A stretch of DNA of 64,000 nt, taken from contig JACRLC010000076.1 of the NCBI GenBank assembly GCA_016235425.1, forward strand, positions 1 to 64,000. The letters run 5' to 3'. The DNA is from Chloroflexota bacterium. Lineage in GTDB: Bacteria > Chloroflexota > Anaerolineae > Anaerolineales > Villigracilaceae. Made by a program: the position numbers and the translations under genes. Below the pieces are notes generated by a model that saw nothing but the letters and a program-made list of their open reading frames with translations, had not been told where the DNA came from and ran no database searches. Shown one piece after another: positions 9,770 to 18,822 of the stretch; within the stretch, counting starts at the first letter, position 1; every line of letters starts with the position of its first letter.

Positions 9770-11386
9770 ATGCCATCAAAACAGACCCGCGCTTTCACGC
9801 GTCCCCGAAATTACCCCCTGCCAGTTGCATTCCTGCTCGCCGCGCTCTTTCTCGCCTCCTGCGCGCCCGCCACTCGCGCACCAGCTGTTTTCCCCAGTTA
9901 CGATCCTTTCATGCCGCTGGATGGAAACTCCCCCGTAAGCATTCCCGCGGCTTCGAACGTTCCCGATTCCCCCACCCCCACGCGCGGACCAACACCCGCG
10001 CGCTCTTCTTTCGCCATCACGCTTGTGCCCACGCCCGGCCCTGACCAACCCCTCGTCACACCCACGCCGGATTCCGGGCGCCAGCTTCCCACCCCGCGGC
10101 AGGACGTTGACCAATACGTTGTGCAAGCCGGTGATACATTGGGAAGCATCGCACAGCGATACGGCATCAGCATGGACGCGTTGATGCAGATGAACGGCAT
10201 CTCCGACCCAAACCTGTTGGAAGTCGGTGTAACGCTCGACATCCCCGCGCCAGAGCCAGGCTCAGTAGGACCGTCGTTCAAGATCATTCCCAATTCAGAA
10301 TTGGTCTATGGCCCGGCGAGTGCGTTCTTCGATATCAATCAATTCATTCAAAGCCGCGAAGGGTATCTCGCAAGTTATGCCGAGGAAGTCAACGGCGAAT
10401 TCCTGCCCGCAGATGAAATCGTTGCGCGCGTCGCGCAGAATTATTCGGTCAACCCGCGTCTACTCCTGGCAATGCTTGAATACCAAAGCGGCTGGGTGAC
10501 AAATCCGACTCCATTCAATGTCGAATATCCCATCGGTCTTGCGGACACGTATCACACCGGCTTGTACCTGCAACTCACCTGGGCCGCAGACACACTCAAT
10601 CGCGGATACTATCTCTGGCACGCCAACGCCATATCCAATTGGGTGTTGACCGATGGCGCGGTCGTCCCTGCGAACCCAACCATCAACGCCGGCACCGCCG
10701 GGGTCCAGCATTTCTATTCCAAATTGGATGACCGCACAACCTGGGAAAAAGATTTGAATCCTGAAGGATTCTTCCTCACCTATTACGTTCTCTTTGGAAA
10801 CCCGTTCCACCTGTCCGTCGAACCGCTCGTTCCCCCGTCGCTCGCACAGCCGCGCCTGACCCTGCCTTTCACAAAAGGCGAAACCTGGGCATTCACCGGC
10901 GGCCCTCACGGCGGCTGGGACTCAGGCTCCGGCTGGGCCGCGCTTGATTTTGCCCCGCCCGGTGAAGTACTGGGATGCGTACTCAGCGGCTCGTGGGTCA
11001 CTGCGGTTGCCGATGGATTGATCGTCCGCGCAAAGGATGGCGCGGTCATCCAGGATTTGGATAACGACGGCTACGAACAAACCGGATGGGTGATCCTCTA
11101 CATGCACGTGGATGCCAGTGAAAGGGTCCAGCCGGAAACGTATTTATTCGCTGGCGAGCGCGTCGGCCACCCGTCCTGCGAAGGCGGCGTATCCAACGGC
11201 ACACATCTCCATATTGCCCGAAAATACAACGGTGAATGGATTCCCGCCGATGGCCCCCTCCCATTCAATCTCGACGGCTGGATTTCCAGCGGGGACGGCG
11301 TCGAATACGATGGCTTCCTCACACGCGGAAATCAGGTTCTCGAAGCATGGGACGGCGTGAACGAACTCAACCAAATCACGCGCTGA
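9770..11386 (+). CDS. LysM / M23-like lipoprotein, first of three tandem paralogues
   Basis: A 538-residue exported lipoprotein (lipobox LASC, Cys31) with a long Pro/Thr-rich spacer and a LysM peptidoglycan-binding domain at about 113-158 (YVVQAGDTLGSIAQRYGIS). A middle domain contains YSVNPRLLLAMLEYQSGW, which recalls the catalytic-Glu helix of lysozyme-like transglycosylases. The C-terminal region (about 365-500) is M23/LytM-like with GPHGGWD, ALDFA, a late MH and NGTHLHIARKYNG (HxH). Inferred role: cell-wall remodelling on the outer face. Catalytic activity of either domain is unproven. Likely leaderless start. Confidence 0.75.
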   Translation: MPSKQTRAFTRPRNYPLPVAFLLAALFLASCAPATRAPAVFPSYDPFMPLDGNSPVSIPAASNVPDSPTPTRGPTPARSSFAITLVPTPGPDQPLVTPTPDSGRQLPTPRQDVDQYVVQAGDTLGSIAQRYGISMDALMQMNGISDPNLLEVGVTLDIPAPEPGSVGPSFKIIPNSELVYGPASAFFDINQFIQSREGYLASYAEEVNGEFLPADEIVARVAQNYSVNPRLLLAMLEYQSGWVTNPTPFNVEYPIGLADTYHTGLYLQLTWAADTLNRGYYLWHANAISNWVLTDGAVVPANPTINAGTAGVQHFYSKLDDRTTWEKDLNPEGFFLTYYVLFGNPFHLSVEPLVPPSLAQPRLTLPFTKGETWAFTGGPHGGWDSGSGWAALDFAPPGEVLGCVLSGSWVTAVADGLIVRAKDGAVIQDLDNDGYEQTGWVILYMHVDASERVQPETYLFAGERVGHPSCEGGVSNGTHLHIARKYNGEWIPADGPLPFNLDGWISSGDGVEYDGFLTRGNQVLEAWDGVNELNQITR

Positions 11387-11420
11387 TTCATGCGGGCTTA
11401 ATCAAGGCAGATATAATTCA

Positions 11421-13037
11421 ATGCGAACGTTACAAGTGAATCGCATCCTCGCCATCCTCATCATTCCATCGCTGACCCTGACGGCCTGCGCCTCTTCGCC
11501 TTCCATCTGGGGGGCGGCGCTGACTCCCACGCCTCATTCATTCGATTCGCTTCCGCTTCATACTGACCCTCCGCCTGCCCCCGTTTTCCCTGAGTTAAAT
11601 CCCGCCTCAACAGTCACCCCGCCCCGCCCAGCGGAAGACCTGCCTTTCCAGACCCCCACGCCTTTGGTCGAATCACCGTTCGAAGCCACATACACACCAA
11701 CATTCGACACCGCGCCTGTTTTGTACTACGCCCAAAGCGGCGACAGTCTCGCCACGCTTGCAAAAAGATTTAACGTCGTGGAAGAAGAGATCACTTCCGA
11801 TATAACCCTGCCAACCACCGGCCTGCTCGATCCCGGAACCCTGCTGGTCATCCCGGACCGCATCAACGAACCGACCACGCCGAATATCCAGATCATGCCC
11901 GATAACGAGATCATCTTTTCCGCCACCGCAGTGGATTTCGACACCAAAGGCTTCGTCAAAGAAGCTGGCGGACATTTAAGCGGCTTTAAAGAATATCTCG
12001 GTTCCACCGGTTGGGCATACGGCGACGATGCGATTGCCCGTCTCGCCTACGAAAACTCGATCAACCCGCGCCTCCTGCTTGGCCTCCTCGAATATGAAAG
12101 CCGCTGGGTGCGCGGCGAACCCGTTGATCCGCTTCATACCGATTACCCGATGGGCTACGAAGATTTTCGTTACAAAGGCATGTACATTCAAATGGTCTGG
12201 GCGATCAACCAGCTTTCCATCGGATACTATGGCTGGCGCGCAGGCACGATCACCCAGCTTACTTTTACCGACGGCACGCACCTGCGCCTTGACCCGCGCT
12301 TGAACGCCGGGACAGTCGCATTGCAATATCTTTTCTCCCGCCTGCACAGCCAGTCGCAATGGGCGCAAATTATCAACCCCGATACCGGCTTCCCGGTCAT
12401 GTACACCGAGATGTTCGGCGATCCCTGGTCGCGCGCCGACATCGTAAACCCAATCCTGCCGCCGGGACTAACACAACCTGAAATGAACTTACCGTTTGAA
12501 CCAAACCGCCAATGGAACCTGGTTCAGGGGCCGCACGGTGCATGGCAACATATTGGCGCGCTAGCCGCAATTGACCTCGCTCCCTCCACCGACCACGGCG
12601 GCTGTGATCCCACACCCACCTGGGTGCTGGCCGTAACACCGGGGCTGGTGGTCCGCTCAGACAACGGCGTCGTCATGGTGGATATGGACGGTGACGGCCA
12701 CGAACAAACCGGCTGGAACATCCTGTATCTTCACATTGGAGCTGAGGACCGCGTCAAAGTTGGCACGTGGCTGGAGGTGGATGACCGCATCGGTCACGCC
12801 TCCTGCGAAGGCGGAGAATCCAACGGGACCCACCTGCATTTTGCCCGCAAATACAACGGCGAATGGATCGCGGCAAACGGTCCCATTCCACTGGTTTTGG
12901 GCGGCTGGGTGGTCCGCGGAGAAGACACACCACACGAAGGTTTCATGAAAGGCACGATGACCAAAGGGGACCTGACCGTCATCGCCGATGAGGTCGGGCA
13001 GAAATGGTCGAATATCACACGTGAGGCGAATGAATAG
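11421..13037 (+). CDS. LysM / M23-like lipoprotein, second paralogue
   Basis: A 538-residue paralogue of the preceding gene with the same order of parts: lipobox LTAC (Cys23), Pro/Thr spacer, LysM at about 100-147 (YYAQSGDSLATLAKRFNV, a weaker version), middle motif NSINPRLLLGLLEYESRW, and an M23-like end with GPHGAWQ, AIDLAPS, LHIGAEDRV and NGTHLHFARKYNG. TATAAT lies only three bases before the ATG. The first codons may therefore be wrong and GTG 11436 (giving MNRILAIL...) is an alternative. Eight bases of its end overlap the third paralogue. Confidence 0.75.
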   Translation: MRTLQVNRILAILIIPSLTLTACASSPSIWGAALTPTPHSFDSLPLHTDPPPAPVFPELNPASTVTPPRPAEDLPFQTPTPLVESPFEATYTPTFDTAPVLYYAQSGDSLATLAKRFNVVEEEITSDITLPTTGLLDPGTLLVIPDRINEPTTPNIQIMPDNEIIFSATAVDFDTKGFVKEAGGHLSGFKEYLGSTGWAYGDDAIARLAYENSINPRLLLGLLEYESRWVRGEPVDPLHTDYPMGYEDFRYKGMYIQMVWAINQLSIGYYGWRAGTITQLTFTDGTHLRLDPRLNAGTVALQYLFSRLHSQSQWAQIINPDTGFPVMYTEMFGDPWSRADIVNPILPPGLTQPEMNLPFEPNRQWNLVQGPHGAWQHIGALAAIDLAPSTDHGGCDPTPTWVLAVTPGLVVRSDNGVVMVDMDGDGHEQTGWNILYLHIGAEDRVKVGTWLEVDDRIGHASCEGGESNGTHLHFARKYNGEWIAANGPIPLVLGGWVVRGEDTPHEGFMKGTMTKGDLTVIADEVGQKWSNITREANE

Positions 13038-14517
13038 TTCTGCAATATCAAAAACCAGGCGCGGGCTAAAGATCATCTTTATCGCCGCATTGTTCCTTTC
13101 GGGGTGCAACCTTCGAGCAGTAACCCCGCCATCCACTCCCGCTACAACACACCCAAACAGCACGACCCCAACACCGGTCCCACTGCCCGCCCTGCCAACG
13201 CGCCCGGTTTACAAACCCGGCGAATTGGTGGATTACACCGCCCAAAACGGCGATACGCTTTCAGCCCTGGCGGCGCGCTTCAACACCAGCGTGGCCGAAA
13301 TCCTCGAAGCCAATCCGATCGTCCCACGCGAAGCCACCACCATGCCGCCCGGGCTACCGATGAAAATTCCCATTTATTATCGGGCGCTGTGGGCCAGCCC
13401 TTTCCAAATTTTACCGGACGATGCGTTCGTCAACAGCCCATCGTTGATCGGTTTTAATACCCCGGCATTCGTAGCTTCACAACCGGGCTGGCTGAAAGAT
13501 TATCAAGTGTATGCGGCGGGCCGCTGGCGTTCCGGCGCGCAGATGGTGGATTTCATTGCCACCAATTACAGCCTCAGCCCGCGGCTCCTGCTTGCCGTTC
13601 TTGAATACCAGGGCGGCGCGTTGTCACAGCCTGAACCGCCGGTTAAAAAGAACCTGCTTGGCTTGAAGCGCCTCTATTACGAAAGCCCGTATCTTCAACT
13701 GATCCTCGCGGCGAGCACACTTAACAATGGATACTACGGCTGGCGCGGCGGCACGCTTCTCGAATTCGACCTGCCCGACGGCACATTGATCCGGCCTGAC
13801 CCCTGGCAGAATGCCGGCTCCGCGGCGCTTCAATATTATTATTCGAAAATGTTTTCCGGCGATCAATATGCGCTCGCCATCGGACCTCAGGGACTGCATC
13901 AAACCTACGTGAATTTATTCGGCGACCCGTGGGCTGATCTGTTTACTCTCATCCCCGGCAGTTTGCAACAACCCGAACTGCAACTCCCCTTCCCGGTCGG
14001 CCACATCTGGACATACACCGGCGGGCCGCACACCGCCTGGGGTTCCGGTGAACCCTTCGCCGCAATTGACCTGGCCCCTCCGTCCGATAAATCAGGCTGT
14101 TTCATCGCAGACGCGCAGCAATTCGCCACGGCGATGGCAGATGGCCTGGTGGTGCGTTCGGATATTGACGGCCTGATCCTCGACCTCGACATGGACGGCG
14201 ACGAGCGCACAGGCTGGGTTTTGTTTTACCTGCACCTTGCCGCAAAAGACCGCGCCCACCTCGGCGCGGAACTGAAGGCTGGGGATATGATCGGCTATCC
14301 CTCGTGCGAAGGCGGCCGCGTGACCGGCACACACATCCACATTGCCCGCAAATATAACGGCGAGTGGATCCTCGCCGACGGCGTCCTTCCCTTCAACATG
14401 GGTGGCTGGGTGACTCACAACGGCACACGCGCCTATCTTGGCACACTCACCAAGGGCGGTTCAACCGTCACCGCGTGCGAATGTTCGGATAAATATAGTG
14501 AGGTGCTGAATAGGTAA
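13030..14517 (+). CDS. LysM / M23-like lipoprotein, third paralogue
   Basis: A 495-residue third copy: lipobox LSGC (Cys26), short Pro/Thr spacer, LysM at about 67-113 (YTAQNGDTLSALAARFNTS), middle motif YSLSPRLLLAVLEYQGG, and M23-like end with GPHTAWG, AIDLAPP, LHLAAKDR and TGTHIHIARKYNG. The ATG overlaps the previous stop by eight bases, so the two genes are co-translated. The putative catalytic Glu is kept in all three copies, while the residues after it differ (QS, ES, QG), hinting at divergence in substrate or loss of activity. Confidence 0.75.
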   Translation: MNSSAISKTRRGLKIIFIAALFLSGCNLRAVTPPSTPATTHPNSTTPTPVPLPALPTRPVYKPGELVDYTAQNGDTLSALAARFNTSVAEILEANPIVPREATTMPPGLPMKIPIYYRALWASPFQILPDDAFVNSPSLIGFNTPAFVASQPGWLKDYQVYAAGRWRSGAQMVDFIATNYSLSPRLLLAVLEYQGGALSQPEPPVKKNLLGLKRLYYESPYLQLILAASTLNNGYYGWRGGTLLEFDLPDGTLIRPDPWQNAGSAALQYYYSKMFSGDQYALAIGPQGLHQTYVNLFGDPWADLFTLIPGSLQQPELQLPFPVGHIWTYTGGPHTAWGSGEPFAAIDLAPPSDKSGCFIADAQQFATAMADGLVVRSDIDGLILDLDMDGDERTGWVLFYLHLAAKDRAHLGAELKAGDMIGYPSCEGGRVTGTHIHIARKYNGEWILADGVLPFNMGGWVTHNGTRAYLGTLTKGGSTVTACECSDKYSEVLNR

Positions 14518-14808: not shown

Positions 14809-15282
14809 TTATGCTTGGGGTGATACACTTTTTACTTCATACGTTCCCTGTTCGAGCAGTTTGTTCCCCTCATCAAAAATCTTGTATTGAAGTTCAATGG
14901 GGAATGCCTTGCTCAACATGGCGTGTGCCGGACAGTATTTTTCGGTGGAAAGTTCAATCGCCCGCAGAAGTGCGGCTTTGTTTACATCGCGTCCCGTGAC
15001 GAGATATTCGATCACCGCTTTCGTAAAAACCTTGGGATGCGTCTCGGCGCGGTCGGCAAATACTTTCACCTGGAAATCCGTCACGTCCTGTTGTTTCTTT
15101 CGCAGGATCGAGATCACATCCATGGCGGTGCAACCCGCAAGCCCAAGCGCGATGAATTCGATGGGACGCGCGGCGCTGTTATCACCGCCCGCTGATTCTT
15201 CCGAGTCCACTCTTTGCACGAATCCAGAATCAGCCGAGCCTTCAAACGCCATGCGGCCTTTCCAGTTGAGGGTTACTTCCAC
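14809..15282 (-). CDS. OsmC family peroxiredoxin-like protein
   Basis: A 157-residue OsmC/Ohr-fold protein that reduces (organic) hydroperoxides with two cysteines. These are visible in GLAGCTAMDVISIL and EKYCPAHAML, at family-typical spacing. It starts with GTG at 15282, with an AGGAG site seven bases upstream that lies inside the end of the TlpA-like gene; only three bases separate the two, so they form an operon. Its neighbours are thiol-disulfide proteins, so it belongs to the redox island under the nearby ECF sigma factor or its own promoter. Confidence 0.9.
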   Translation of the reverse strand: MEVTLNWKGRMAFEGSADSGFVQRVDSEESAGGDNSAARPIEFIALGLAGCTAMDVISILRKKQQDVTDFQVKVFADRAETHPKVFTKAVIEYLVTGRDVNKAALLRAIELSTEKYCPAHAMLSKAFPIELQYKIFDEGNKLLEQGTYEVKSVSPQA

Positions 15283-15285
15283 GGA

Positions 15286-15867
15286 TCACTCCTTGATGAC
15301 GGGGGGTACGTATTTTTCAAGATTTTTTTGGCTGATCCCACCAATCCACATTAAACGGACAGTGCCGGAACGGTCAATCACGTATGAACTCGGAAGGTTC
15401 ATAGTGTTGAAAGCCTTTTCGGATTGATATTCCTCATCCAGCCAGATGGGGAACGTCAGGCCGTAATCCTTCACAAACAGTGCGACCAGATCCGGCGTTT
15501 CGCCGTCGTTGATGCCGATGATGACAAAGCCATCCCCTTTGTATTTTTCGTAAAAGGCCTGCAGGGTGGGCATTTCCGCTTTGCACGGCGGACACCACGT
15601 AGCCCACATGTTGACCAAAACCACCCTGCCAAGATAATCGGTTAGTGAAACCGAATTGCCGTTCAAATCAGTGAGCGTCAATTCGGGCACAGGGTAGTCC
15701 ACTTTTACAGGAATGGTCGAATACTCGTCCGGCTGTTCCTGCGCATTCGCTTGCGACGAATTCAATATAAAAAACAACATCACACCAAGCGCGATAAACC
15801 CTGCGCCGATCAGGGTCATGCCGTAGATAAAACCGGGAGAGTGGCGGGGTTCCTTTTTCCGTTTCAT
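15286..15867 (-). CDS. TlpA/ResA-like membrane-anchored thioredoxin
   Basis: A 193-residue protein with a single N-terminal membrane anchor (FIYGMTLIGAGFIALGVMLFFIL) and an extracytoplasmic AhpC-TSA/Redoxin-type thioredoxin fold. The active site is WATWCPPCKAEMP and the cis-Pro segment LPSSYVIDRSG. It likely reduces or exchanges disulfides, e.g. in cytochrome c maturation or envelope proteins. An upstream in-frame ATG at 15891 sits inside a TATAAT box on this strand, so the ATG at 15867 is preferred. Translationally close to the OsmC gene downstream. Confidence 0.88.
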   Translation of the reverse strand: MKRKKEPRHSPGFIYGMTLIGAGFIALGVMLFFILNSSQANAQEQPDEYSTIPVKVDYPVPELTLTDLNGNSVSLTDYLGRVVLVNMWATWCPPCKAEMPTLQAFYEKYKGDGFVIIGINDGETPDLVALFVKDYGLTFPIWLDEEYQSEKAFNTMNLPSSYVIDRSGTVRLMWIGGISQKNLEKYVPPVIKE

Positions 15868-15889
15868 TTTGGATGCGGGTGTCACCTGC

Positions 15890-15930
15890 ATTATACAATG
15901 TTCAGGGAGCAGTGCGACTGCTCCCTGAAC
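15890..15930 (-). terminator. Hairpin terminator overlapping the promoter of the TlpA-like gene
   Basis: A 14-bp perfect inverted repeat GTTCAGGGAGCAGT/ACTGCTCCCTGAAC (15900-15930, loop of three) follows the glutaredoxin-like gene on the minus strand. It runs straight into TATAAT (15895-15890) for the next gene. A weak -35 (GTCGCA, 15918-15913) falls in the loop and arm, with a 17-base spacer. Confidence 0.5.
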
Positions 15931-15934
15931 GATT

Positions 15935-16606
15935 TTAGTTTACAGAGGCCACACGCTGGATTGCGGCAACCAAATTCATTTCCGGTACTGCGCCGATGAC
16001 GTGTTCGCGTCCATTGTTGATGGAGGTGTGCGGCACGCCATGAACGCCGTGCTTACCTGCCAGTTCAGGAAACTCCATCGCTTCCACGGCTTCGGCGGTG
16101 ACCATCTTCGGGTTTTCCATTGCCATCGCATGAGCGAGCACCACGGCCCGCGGACAATGCGGTCAGGTAGGGGTGACAAATACTTGCAGGTGGATGGGTT
16201 CTGTCAGGGCTTTGAGAAATTCCCGGGCAGCGGCAGACAGGCCCGAGTCCCGCGCGGAAGCGGAAAGAATGTCCTGAATGAAGGAACTGAACTCGTGGCC
16301 GGACGGAATCCCAGCGTAGCGAATGCCCAGGTCTGTGATCGTTCCGCCATCTTTGGCGGCGATGATGATGCCGGGGGCCTTGTCCATTTGATACTGGCGG
16401 GCAATCTCCGTATCGGCATCGAGGTCGTACGCTGAAAAACTGAGTTGATCGGACAGGGCGGAAACTTCCTCTGTCAGTTGGCGGGTTTCGCCGCAATAAT
16501 CGCAGTTCTGACTGCGGCCAAAGAACATCAGGTGAACCGGTTGCTTCAGGCCCGCGAAGACTTCGCGAATCTGCGCGGTGACACTTTCGTTGAGCAGGTT
16601 TGTCAT
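15935..16606 (-). CDS. Probable selenoprotein: two-domain glutaredoxin-like protein disulfide oxidoreductase (in-frame TGA at 16163-16165)
   Basis: Read through one TGA, this is a 223-residue protein with two thioredoxin folds like the PDO/TIGR02187 family (about 220 residues). Domain 1 has C35-D-Y-C38; domain 2 has VFVTPT-[TGA148]-PHCPRAV, i.e. U-x-x-C where the family has CxxC, and a correct cis-Pro loop GVPHTSIN. Reading frame, length and homology continue unbroken after the TGA. A bacterial-type SECIS hairpin follows immediately. Known alternative: a nonsense mutation of the first active-site Cys, but the hairpin argues against it. A gene caller would split it at 16163. A GGAGAATA ribosome site precedes the ATG. 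It likely reduces disulfides in the cytoplasm. Confidence 0.82.
16127..16161 (-). promoter_or_regulatory. Bacterial SECIS element in the coding sequence just after the TGA
   Basis: Counting from the first base after the TGA: lower stem CGCAT (2-6) with ATGCG (32-36), and upper stem GCGGGC (12-17) with GCTCGC (24-29, one G-U pair). These enclose a six-base apical loop CGUGGU that contains GGU. The E. coli fdhF SECIS has the same plan, with an 11-base distance to the upper stem and GGU in a short loop. The selB/selA/selC/selD genes needed to use it are not in this window. Confidence 0.72.
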
Positions 16607-16668
16607 TTATTCTCCATGTTCCCGCAACTTTTCAGGCGGGACGACCCACACGGGGTCAAAAAGGGTTA

Positions 16669-16875
16669 TCAGGTGCAACCGCCGCCCTCGCTGTTGACGA
16701 AGCCGCATTTTGGACATTCCAATTGCAGAAGGCCGTTGTAGTCCAACTGCCCCTGCCCGCATTGAGGACAGGTCTCGCCTTTCCGCAAAGGTTTTGTTGT
16801 AACGAATGTTTCGGGCCGGTCAATGTTGAGAAGGAGCAATTCCAGCGATGAAAGATTTCTGGGTTCGGCGGTCAC
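16669..16875 (-). CDS. Small zinc-ribbon protein
   Basis: A 68-residue protein with a two-knuckle zinc ribbon: GETCPQCGQGQL and LQLECPKCGFVNSEGGGC. The N-terminal half (LSSLELLLLNIDRPETFVTTKP) is unassigned. The GTG start (16875) lacks a good ribosome site, so the true start is uncertain. Located between the anti-sigma factor and the glutaredoxin-like gene, and ending in TGA TAA. It may bind metal or act as a redox-sensitive partner; no function is assigned. Confidence 0.6.
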   Translation of the reverse strand: MTAEPRNLSSLELLLLNIDRPETFVTTKPLRKGETCPQCGQGQLDYNGLLQLECPKCGFVNSEGGGCT

Positions 16876-16956
16876 GATGTTTTGATGCGGGGATTTGTGA
16901 AAAGTTGCAGGATGGAGTCCGGAGTCTCTGACTTCGGTTTTGTCACAGCGCCAGCT

Positions 16957-16981
16957 CCAACGTCGGGAGACGTTGGAGTCC
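16957..16981. repeat. Short palindromic repeat (CCAAMGTC family)
   Basis: CCAACGTC-GGGA-GACGTTGG followed by AGTCC, in the gap between the anti-sigma factor and zinc-ribbon genes. Confidence 0.65.
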
Positions 16982-16991
16982 AGTCCTCGAT

Positions 16992-17252
16992 TTATGCCTT
17001 CTTCGCGAACTCATCCAGATCGAGACGTTTGAATAAACGCTCGCGCACACCAACGGGCAGGTCTGCTTCCGCGCTGGAGGATTGGTACAAATAAATCGTC
17101 TTCTTGAATGTATCCACAACGATGCGGCAGTTTTCACACTCCGATAAATGGCGTTCAAGTTCGCGGCACAGATCGTCCTGCAATGAGCCATCCACATATT
17201 CGGAGATCGAGCCCAGCAGGTCGCGGCACCTGGGTGTATGTGTATGTGTCAT
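16992..17252 (-). CDS. Zinc-type anti-sigma factor (zf-HC2 / RsrA-like)
   Basis: An 86-residue putative anti-sigma factor with the ZAS signature H-x3-C-x2-C (HLSECENC) preceded by an upstream Cys (PRCRDLL). Such proteins hold the sigma factor in the cytoplasm and in RsrA-like members release it on thiol oxidation. There is no membrane segment, so it is soluble. Its ATG overlaps the sigma-factor stop as ATGA, a typical coupled pair. The presence of thiol-redox genes downstream suggests disulfide stress as signal (inference). Confidence 0.85.
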   Translation of the reverse strand: MTHTHTPRCRDLLGSISEYVDGSLQDDLCRELERHLSECENCRIVVDTFKKTIYLYQSSSAEADLPVGVRERLFKRLDLDEFAKKA

Positions 17253-17857
17253 TTGTTTATCTCCTCTTTGAGTCGTCCACCAAAATATACCGATAATTGT
17301 TCGCGCAGATGCAGGCGCGCCCGCAGTAAACGGGACTTGACGGCGGTATCCGATAATCCGAGCGCCTCCATTGTTTCCTGAATGGAGAGGCCTTCGATGT
17401 CGCGCAGAATAAAAACGGCGCGTAATTTCTCCGGCAGGGTTTGGATGGCGGCATCCAGGGCCTTCTTTGATTCCGCCGTGAGGAACTCGGATTCGGGCAG
17501 GCAACACCAGTCGGTCAACTGCACGGGGGCGATGATGTCATCCGATTCGCCGACGGGTTCATCGGCAATCTCCACTTGTGGTTTGCGCCGCCGGATGAGC
17601 ATCAGCGCTTCGTTGACTGCAATCCGATAGAGCCACGTCATCGGGCTGGAACGCCCTTCAAAATCATCCAGTGATTGCAGGGCTTTTAGAAATGTGTTTT
17701 GCAGAACGTCTTCGGCATCCTGCGAATTACCGAGCATTTTCAAACCAAGCCGGTAGATGGCCGGGGTTGCCAGATCCACGAGCCGGGCAAATTCAGCGCG
17801 GTCACCGGATTTCAAGGCCTGGAATGAAATTTCAGATTGCGAAGATATAACCATCAT
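17249..17857 (-). CDS. RNA polymerase sigma factor, ECF (SigE/SigR-like)
   Basis: A 202-residue ECF sigma factor with two regions: sigma2 (GNSQDAEDVLQNTFLKALQ ... PMTWLYRIAVNEALMLIRRR) and sigma4 (LPEKLRAVFILRDIEGLSIQE ... SDTAVKSRLLRARLHLREQL). There is an acidic/Cys-Cys-containing linker (TDWCCLPESEF). It directs transcription of a stress regulon, presumably including the downstream redox genes. An AAGGA site lies upstream of two adjacent ATG codons. A TATACT box at 17895-17900 on this strand and a CRP-type palindrome lie in its promoter region. Confidence 0.93.
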   Translation of the reverse strand: MMVISSQSEISFQALKSGDRAEFARLVDLATPAIYRLGLKMLGNSQDAEDVLQNTFLKALQSLDDFEGRSSPMTWLYRIAVNEALMLIRRRKPQVEIADEPVGESDDIIAPVQLTDWCCLPESEFLTAESKKALDAAIQTLPEKLRAVFILRDIEGLSIQETMEALGLSDTAVKSRLLRARLHLREQLSVYFGGRLKEEINK

Positions 17858-17933: not shown

Positions 17934-17996
17934 ATGAAGAAAAAAACATGTAAGGAAAAGACACTGCAAGAGATTATTGCCTTACCCGTCACATAA
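17934..17996 (+). CDS. Possible 20-residue leader peptide
   Basis: A short frame MKKKTCKEKTLQEIIALPVT with an AGGTGATG ribosome-site-like sequence seven bases upstream, ending 13 bases before the next start. It lies directly downstream of the CRP-type site. It could be a leader peptide or chance. Confidence 0.25.
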   Translation: MKKKTCKEKTLQEIIALPVT

Positions 17997-18009
17997 AAAA
18001 AGGGGAAAT

Positions 18010-18822
18010 ATGTCTATGCTTTTAGGATGTTTATTACTAGAAACCATTCCCCTGCCTGGGTTACTATGCGTTCAAATGTTGGAGTCACTGACGCACATCC
18101 CGCTCTTCCAGGAACTCGATCCTGCCCAACTCGCCCTGCTGGAACCGCTGTTTGAATATTTTGCATGCCTGTCGGACACGGTGATTTTTGAGCAGGGCGA
18201 CCCTGCCACGCACCTTTATTTGATCCTGGATGGAACGATCTCCATTCGCTACAAACCTTATGACGGTCCGCCGATCACCATCACTCATTTACACACAGGC
18301 GACGTCTTTGGCTGGTCGGCGGTGGTGGGAAGCGCGCATTACACATCCAGCATCGTCAGCGACACGAAGCTTGAAGCTGTACGCATTCGCGGCGAAGCCT
18401 TGTGGGCGCTCTGCCTGCGCCACCCGGAAATGGGACGAACCGTGCTGGACCGCCTCGCGCTGATCGTCTCTTCGCGCTGGAAAAACGCGCATGCCCAGGT
18501 GCAGTCCATTTTGGATCAGGGTTTGGCAAGGATAAATTTGGCACAGAAGAAAAAGAAAGGCGAGAAAAACATGGCTACCGCTACCGCTCCCGCTCACAGC
18601 CTGGAACAGCAGTTGAAAAGCCTGCTCGAACGCCTCAGCGCGTACGTTGAACAATTCCACGGCGGCTCGGTTGATTATGTTTCCTTCGACGGCAGGACAC
18701 TCAAGGTAAAACTTGGCGGGGCCTGCCTGGGCTGTCCGCTCCAGCCAGCGACCCTGCATGGCTGGGTGGCCGGGACAGTCCATCAATTTTTCCCGGATAT
18801 CGAAGTGATTGAAGAAAAATAA
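18010..18822 (+). CDS. Cyclic-nucleotide-binding domain fused to NifU-like Fe-S scaffold domain
   Basis: A 270-residue fusion. Residues about 24-150 form a CRP-type cNMP-binding beta-roll (IFEQGDPATHLYLILDGTISI ... GDVFGWSAVVG), but no helix-turn-helix follows. After a Lys-rich linker, residues about 196-270 are a NifU C-terminal domain with the cluster-binding GGACLGCPL (Cys239, Cys242). This suggests nucleotide- or redox-controlled Fe-S cluster delivery. ATG 18010 has a GGGGA site; MLESLTHIP at ATG 18076 is an alternative. An internal ATG (18571, Met188) with AAAGG upstream could make a free NifU domain. A terminator follows. Confidence 0.8.
   Translation: MSMLLGCLLLETIPLPGLLCVQMLESLTHIPLFQELDPAQLALLEPLFEYFACLSDTVIFEQGDPATHLYLILDGTISIRYKPYDGPPITITHLHTGDVFGWSAVVGSAHYTSSIVSDTKLEAVRIRGEALWALCLRHPEMGRTVLDRLALIVSSRWKNAHAQVQSILDQGLARINLAQKKKKGEKNMATATAPAHSLEQQLKSLLERLSAYVEQFHGGSVDYVSFDGRTLKVKLGGACLGCPLQPATLHGWVAGTVHQFFPDIEVIEEK

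Follow-up and report, generated by a model that had tools for sequence, protein, structure and literature searches.

A redox gene in a Chloroflexota bacterium of the family Villigracilaceae is interrupted by an in-frame stop codon, which raises the question of whether the stop marks a broken gene, the end of a shorter protein or a site at which selenocysteine (Sec) is inserted. The gene lies on the minus strand of the 64,000-nucleotide stretch of DNA analysed here (the window), where the frame from 16606 to 15935 comprises 223 codons, contains a single internal stop (the TGA at 16165-16163, codon 148) and ends in TAA at 15935. Standard ORF calling divides the locus into pieces of 147 aa and 69 aa, the second being a GTG-started ORF after the TGA, as the initial annotation, made from the sequence alone, had anticipated. 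On the comparative evidence given below we predict, with great confidence, that the locus encodes a full-length selenoprotein, a protein disulfide oxidoreductase (PDO) in which the stop is read as Sec. Its features are as follows.

15935..16606, minus strand: PDO gene with predicted Sec at codon 148; 223 aa, stop TAA
16163..16165, minus strand: UGA predicted to be read as selenocysteine (U148), position 1 of the C-terminal UxxC; opposite Cys in all 71 non-TGA homologues and in the CPYC of 1a8l
16154..16156, minus strand: Cys151, putative resolving Cys of the UxxC; invariant in 153/153
16031..16033, minus strand: cis-Pro192; invariant in 153/153
16493..16504, minus strand: N-terminal CDYC motif (C35-C38); missing from some relatives

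Translated with Cys or Sec at position 148, the protein matches the NCBIfam model TIGR02187 (PDO_seleno_TRX, protein disulfide oxidoreductase) over residues 7-218 with 261.8 bits, against a cut-off of 185, and the solved PDOs 1a8l and 1j08 over residues 14-211 with 150 and 147 bits respectively. We take 1a8l to be the PDO of Pyrococcus furiosus and 1j08 to be an archaeal glutaredoxin-like protein, both from hyperthermophilic archaea. Like these, the window protein appears to consist of two thioredoxin folds with a redox site in each (C35DYC38 and U148PHC151, with a cis-proline at P192); residue 148 falls opposite the leading Cys of the C-terminal CPYC in 1a8l and 1j08, which differ from it in having Cys where it is predicted to have Sec. 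By family, two fused thioredoxin folds of this kind would act as a disulfide oxidoreductase. The initial claim that the protein family continues past the TGA and includes the cis-proline is borne out by the extent of the frame, by the span of the TIGR02187 match and by the invariance of P192.

Homologues were sought in 152 genomes of the same family, in a draw of 251 genomes from the phylum and at two loci from other phyla, and 153 were extracted (151 from Chloroflexota and the two from elsewhere). Codon 148 is TGA in 82 of these and Cys (TGC or TGT) in 71, and never anything else, which agrees with the original proposal that the TGA stands at the first Cys of the second CxxC; the TGA is also found in the Acidobacteriota locus L008 (Luteitalea). 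These data bear directly on the view that the TGA is a nonsense mutation in a pseudogene or an artefact of sequencing or assembly. In-frame stops are often a sign of decay and the genome is a draft in 109 contigs, but the same TGA recurs at the same codon across many genomes and families, the protein has no further internal stops, and both the TGA and the hairpin recur in a relative of the same genus that is 78% identical, so that a sequencing error is excluded. Between the window PDO and this relative, dN/dS is 0.21 before the UGA and 0.08 after it; the sequence following the TGA is under strong purifying selection, and the downstream half shows none of the decay that the initial annotation had named as grounds for abandoning its interpretation. 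The comparative data refute the pseudogene or error, and we regard its probability as negligible.

Another view holds that termination is programmed, the 147-aa N-terminal domain being functional by itself and accompanied by minor readthrough or by a separate 69-aa C-terminal piece. UGA recoding in bacteria is typically partial, being put at 30-40% in vivo in one account of E. coli (PMC4513850), so that a truncated product probably coexists with the full-length protein, and the GTG-started ORF after the TGA would provide for a second piece. That piece, however, would lack both the active site and strand 1 of its fold, conservation is stronger after the UGA than before it, and the Cys homologues yield a single protein. 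Moreover, some relatives have lost the N-terminal CxxC (6 Sec and 11 Cys forms have another residue in place of C35), but none has lost C151 or P192. Programmed termination as the purpose of the UGA is therefore very unlikely. The Sec forms L105, L106, L107 and L109 lack the first of the two N-terminal Cys residues and retain the C-terminal UxxC. As decay is seen at the N-terminal motif of some relatives and at the C-terminal site of none, catalysis probably takes place mainly at the C-terminal UxxC.

Insertion of Sec would depend on a hairpin following the UGA, for which the window offers two elements.

16134..16151, minus strand: predicted SECIS upper hairpin GCGGGC-CGUGGU-GCUCGC, 11 nt downstream of the UGA; all six pairs present in 46/49 Sec and 2/35 Cys genes; stem with a compensatory change
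16127..16161, minus strand: putative lower stem CGCAT (16161-16157) / ATGCG (16131-16127); in the window's fold, not conserved

The upper stem GCGGGC/GCTCGC lies at 16151-16146 and 16139-16134 around the six-base loop CGTGGT, and the minimum free energy fold contains both this stem and CGCAT/ATGCG. Both parts of the two-part hairpin first described are therefore present, as is the GGU of the loop, but it is the upper stem alone whose conservation follows Sec; the lower stem is not conserved, and the loop of relatives is CGUGNN, so that the functional weight placed on the lower stem and on GGU was too great. The spacing of 11 bases between TGA and upper stem was confirmed and matches that of E. 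coli fdhF. As in the fdhF SECIS, the hairpin directly follows the UGA and has a G within the first two loop positions; unlike fdhF, the window's family conserves a 6-bp upper hairpin alone and not a long two-part stem. The distance from UGA to apical loop is 17 nt, inside the bacterial range of 16-37 nt (PMC10778597).

Folded singly, the window's hairpin is no better than chance (z -0.31, with 63 of 200 shuffles equally good), and a hairpin as good arises in about 10% of synonymous recodings (p about 0.10). An Rfam scan of the whole window gave no gathering-level match, an absence that weighs little because bacterial SECIS elements are too diverse for a single consensus (PMC12013277). We rejected single-sequence folding as proof of a SECIS, a point on which the initial annotation had overrated the hairpin; its significance comes from relatives, the window's sequence alone being insufficient.

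Within the family and order, the consensus of the hairpin is GCRAGC-CGUGNN-GCUYGC at a spacing of 11 nt, the window having GCGGGC with a G-U pair. Homologues with TGA keep it and those with Cys lose it, in the proportions listed above; that count used a fixed 6-6-6 geometry, which the 5-nt-loop hairpin of L008 escapes. The outermost pair is missing in three family Sec genes (L066, L077 and L090). Among 12 independent, well-supported pairs from the family, the hairpin tracks Sec in 11.9 and the opposite is found in none (p 0.0005). At codons 153-157 synonymous codons vary hardly or not at all among Sec forms and vary strongly among Cys forms; with z from -3.2 to -6.5, the contrast lies at the extreme for the gene as a whole. 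Four Sec genes with an Arg-to-Gln change at 153 have replaced a G-C pair of the stem with A-U through changes on both strands, and it is mainly on this one compensatory pair that covariation in the family hairpin rests.

Elsewhere in the phylum the geometry differs. A hairpin of the form NGCCA-GNN-UGGCN at +17 is found in 24 of the 33 Sec genes of the phylum draw (L122, L138-L172 and others), with an outer pair that covaries, being G-C, G-U, C-G, A-U or U-G, and its pattern is matched by one of 37 Cys genes (L174). Tested one by one, these hairpins are mostly not significant, for which reason we call this geometry a likely and not a proven SECIS. A third set (L166, L167, L175, L177 and L178) has a 5-nt loop, CGUGA, at about +11.

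Constraint in the family Sec forms extends to the codons just upstream of the UGA.

16169..16174, minus strand: codons 145-146 (ACC CCU), synonymously constrained in family Sec forms

Codon 145 is ACC in 44 and codon 146 is CCU in 39 of 48 family Sec genes (z -4.5 and -4.2), while both are free in Cys genes. After correction for descent, 6.4 of 12 pairs link ACC CCY to Sec and 0.2 show the opposite (median p 0.03), which is moderate support, and the constraint is absent from Sec genes in the rest of the phylum. Conceivably, nucleotides -9 to -4 form a second cis-signal that favours Sec insertion over termination and decays with the hairpin once Cys replaces Sec, although we hold this to be rather doubtful.

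The host is equipped for selenoprotein synthesis. Its genome (5.0 Mb, 99.6% complete) contains selA (546.8 bits), selB (332.8) and selD (353), each above the curated cut-off, and a tRNA-Sec (selC) of 70 bits against a cut-off of 47; the search for sel genes that had been proposed at the outset thus found the full set. Across the phylum draw, selB is present in 34 of 36 genomes with a Sec-PDO and in 160 of 215 others (p 0.005), a modest association, and the two Sec-PDO genomes without it are 76-88% complete. Within the family it occurs in 141 of 152 genomes and, being near-universal, discriminates little. The selD of the window's genome (L027 1501-2433) has one in-frame TGA near its start (SACAG-U-ASK) and probably encodes a selenoprotein too, so that the PDO is probably not the only Sec gene of this genome.

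This machinery, together with a SECIS-type hairpin coupled to the TGA, argues against recoding of the UGA as an amino acid other than Sec, such as Trp or Cys. In principle UGA is open to near-cognate readthrough; against this, other genes in the window end in TGA (for example 16669-16875), and Cys is the sole alternative to TGA at this site among the homologues. We consider such recoding highly improbable. The selenoprotein interpretation of the initial annotation has withstood comparison on the three points that it had itself named as able to refute it, namely the sel genes of the host, conservation downstream of the TGA and retention of the hairpin with it. If it holds, SelB and Sec-tRNA-Sec would bind the hairpin 11 nt after the UGA, Sec would enter the C-terminal UPHC site as its attacking residue, and Cys151 would resolve the selenenyl-sulfide. 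We infer that catalysis runs in the reducing direction, the PDO probably reducing disulfides of partner proteins.

Changes between Sec and Cys have been frequent, numbering at least 27 on the tree of all 153 proteins and at least 20 in the family set. The hairpin is nearly identical throughout the family, and a single base change turns Sec into Cys, whereas a gain of Sec requires that a hairpin already be in place; both points suggest that Sec is ancestral and has been lost to Cys many times, horizontal transfer being a further possibility. By comparison, a 2006 survey gives Sec-to-Cys changes in just four families (PMC1794560). The same survey describes TIGR02187 as a selenoprotein family in Carboxydothermus and Symbiobacterium, with two members in its table, and in reviews TIGR02187 proteins with a UxxC figure as predicted selenoproteins (PMC9312934, PMC13188914). 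As the type is already catalogued, the window gene belongs to a known class of selenoprotein, and the suggestion that it was of an unannotated type went too far. By family model and motif it resembles the selenoproteins catalogued as 'homolog of AhpF N-terminal domain (Grx-like)', such as ABB15282.1, which share TIGR02187 and the UxxC and were likewise predicted from an in-frame TGA; it differs from them in phylum, belonging to the class Anaerolineae of the Chloroflexota. Chloroflexota are not named in the passages on TIGR02187 selenoproteins in PMC1794560, PMC9312934 and PMC13188914, and our literature search found no paper on selenoproteins of Anaerolineae or Chloroflexota that covers this gene. 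Sec-PDO is apparently undescribed in this bacterial lineage.

What merits pursuit is how often Sec and Cys have switched, together with the alternative hairpins and the constraint on the upstream codons. Because gene callers that ignore Sec split the gene, Chloroflexota common in the environment probably have a thiol-redox enzyme that is misread as fragments or as a pseudogene. Repeated exchange of Sec and Cys between close relatives, within the same operon, is a natural experiment on why selenocysteine is kept and on what sequence its insertion needs, in which paired Sec and Cys genes allow the hairpin and upstream codons to be separated from constraint on the protein.

The PDO gene lies in a cluster of genes in one direction (14809-17857), whose other members are listed from the first gene onwards.

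17249..17857, minus strand: ECF-type sigma factor, first gene of the cluster (Pfam; conserved PDO neighbour)
16992..17252, minus strand: zf-HC2 anti-sigma factor with HxxxCxxC (Pfam; conserved neighbour)
16669..16875, minus strand: 68-aa zinc-ribbon-like protein (weak Pfam matches; conserved neighbour)
15286..15891, minus strand: TlpA/AhpC-TSA-like thiol-disulfide protein with CPPC (conserved neighbour)
14809..15282, minus strand: OsmC-family protein (conserved neighbour)

Much of this order, from ECF sigma factor to OsmC, is retained in relatives with Sec and with Cys alike, and points to a thiol- or peroxide-stress operon. In thiol-stress regulons of the SigR/RsrA type an ECF sigma factor is paired with a zinc-binding anti-sigma factor, and the window cluster likewise places an ECF sigma factor and an HxxxCxxC anti-sigma factor beside thiol oxidoreductase genes; the likeness is one of gene content, and the stress role of the operon is proposed by analogy. 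The PDO would thus probably be expressed within a thiol-stress operon under the ECF sigma factor and its zinc-binding anti-sigma factor. Next to the cluster, on the plus strand, a single ORF at 17977-18822 combines cNMP-binding and NifU domains with a possible internal ATG before NifU, and may be a fusion or two genes. On its other side, three similar ORFs in succession (538, 538 and 509 aa; 9770-14517, plus strand) look like a tandem duplication; by eye, they have a lipoprotein-like start, a LysM-like repeat and a peptidase-like C-terminus.
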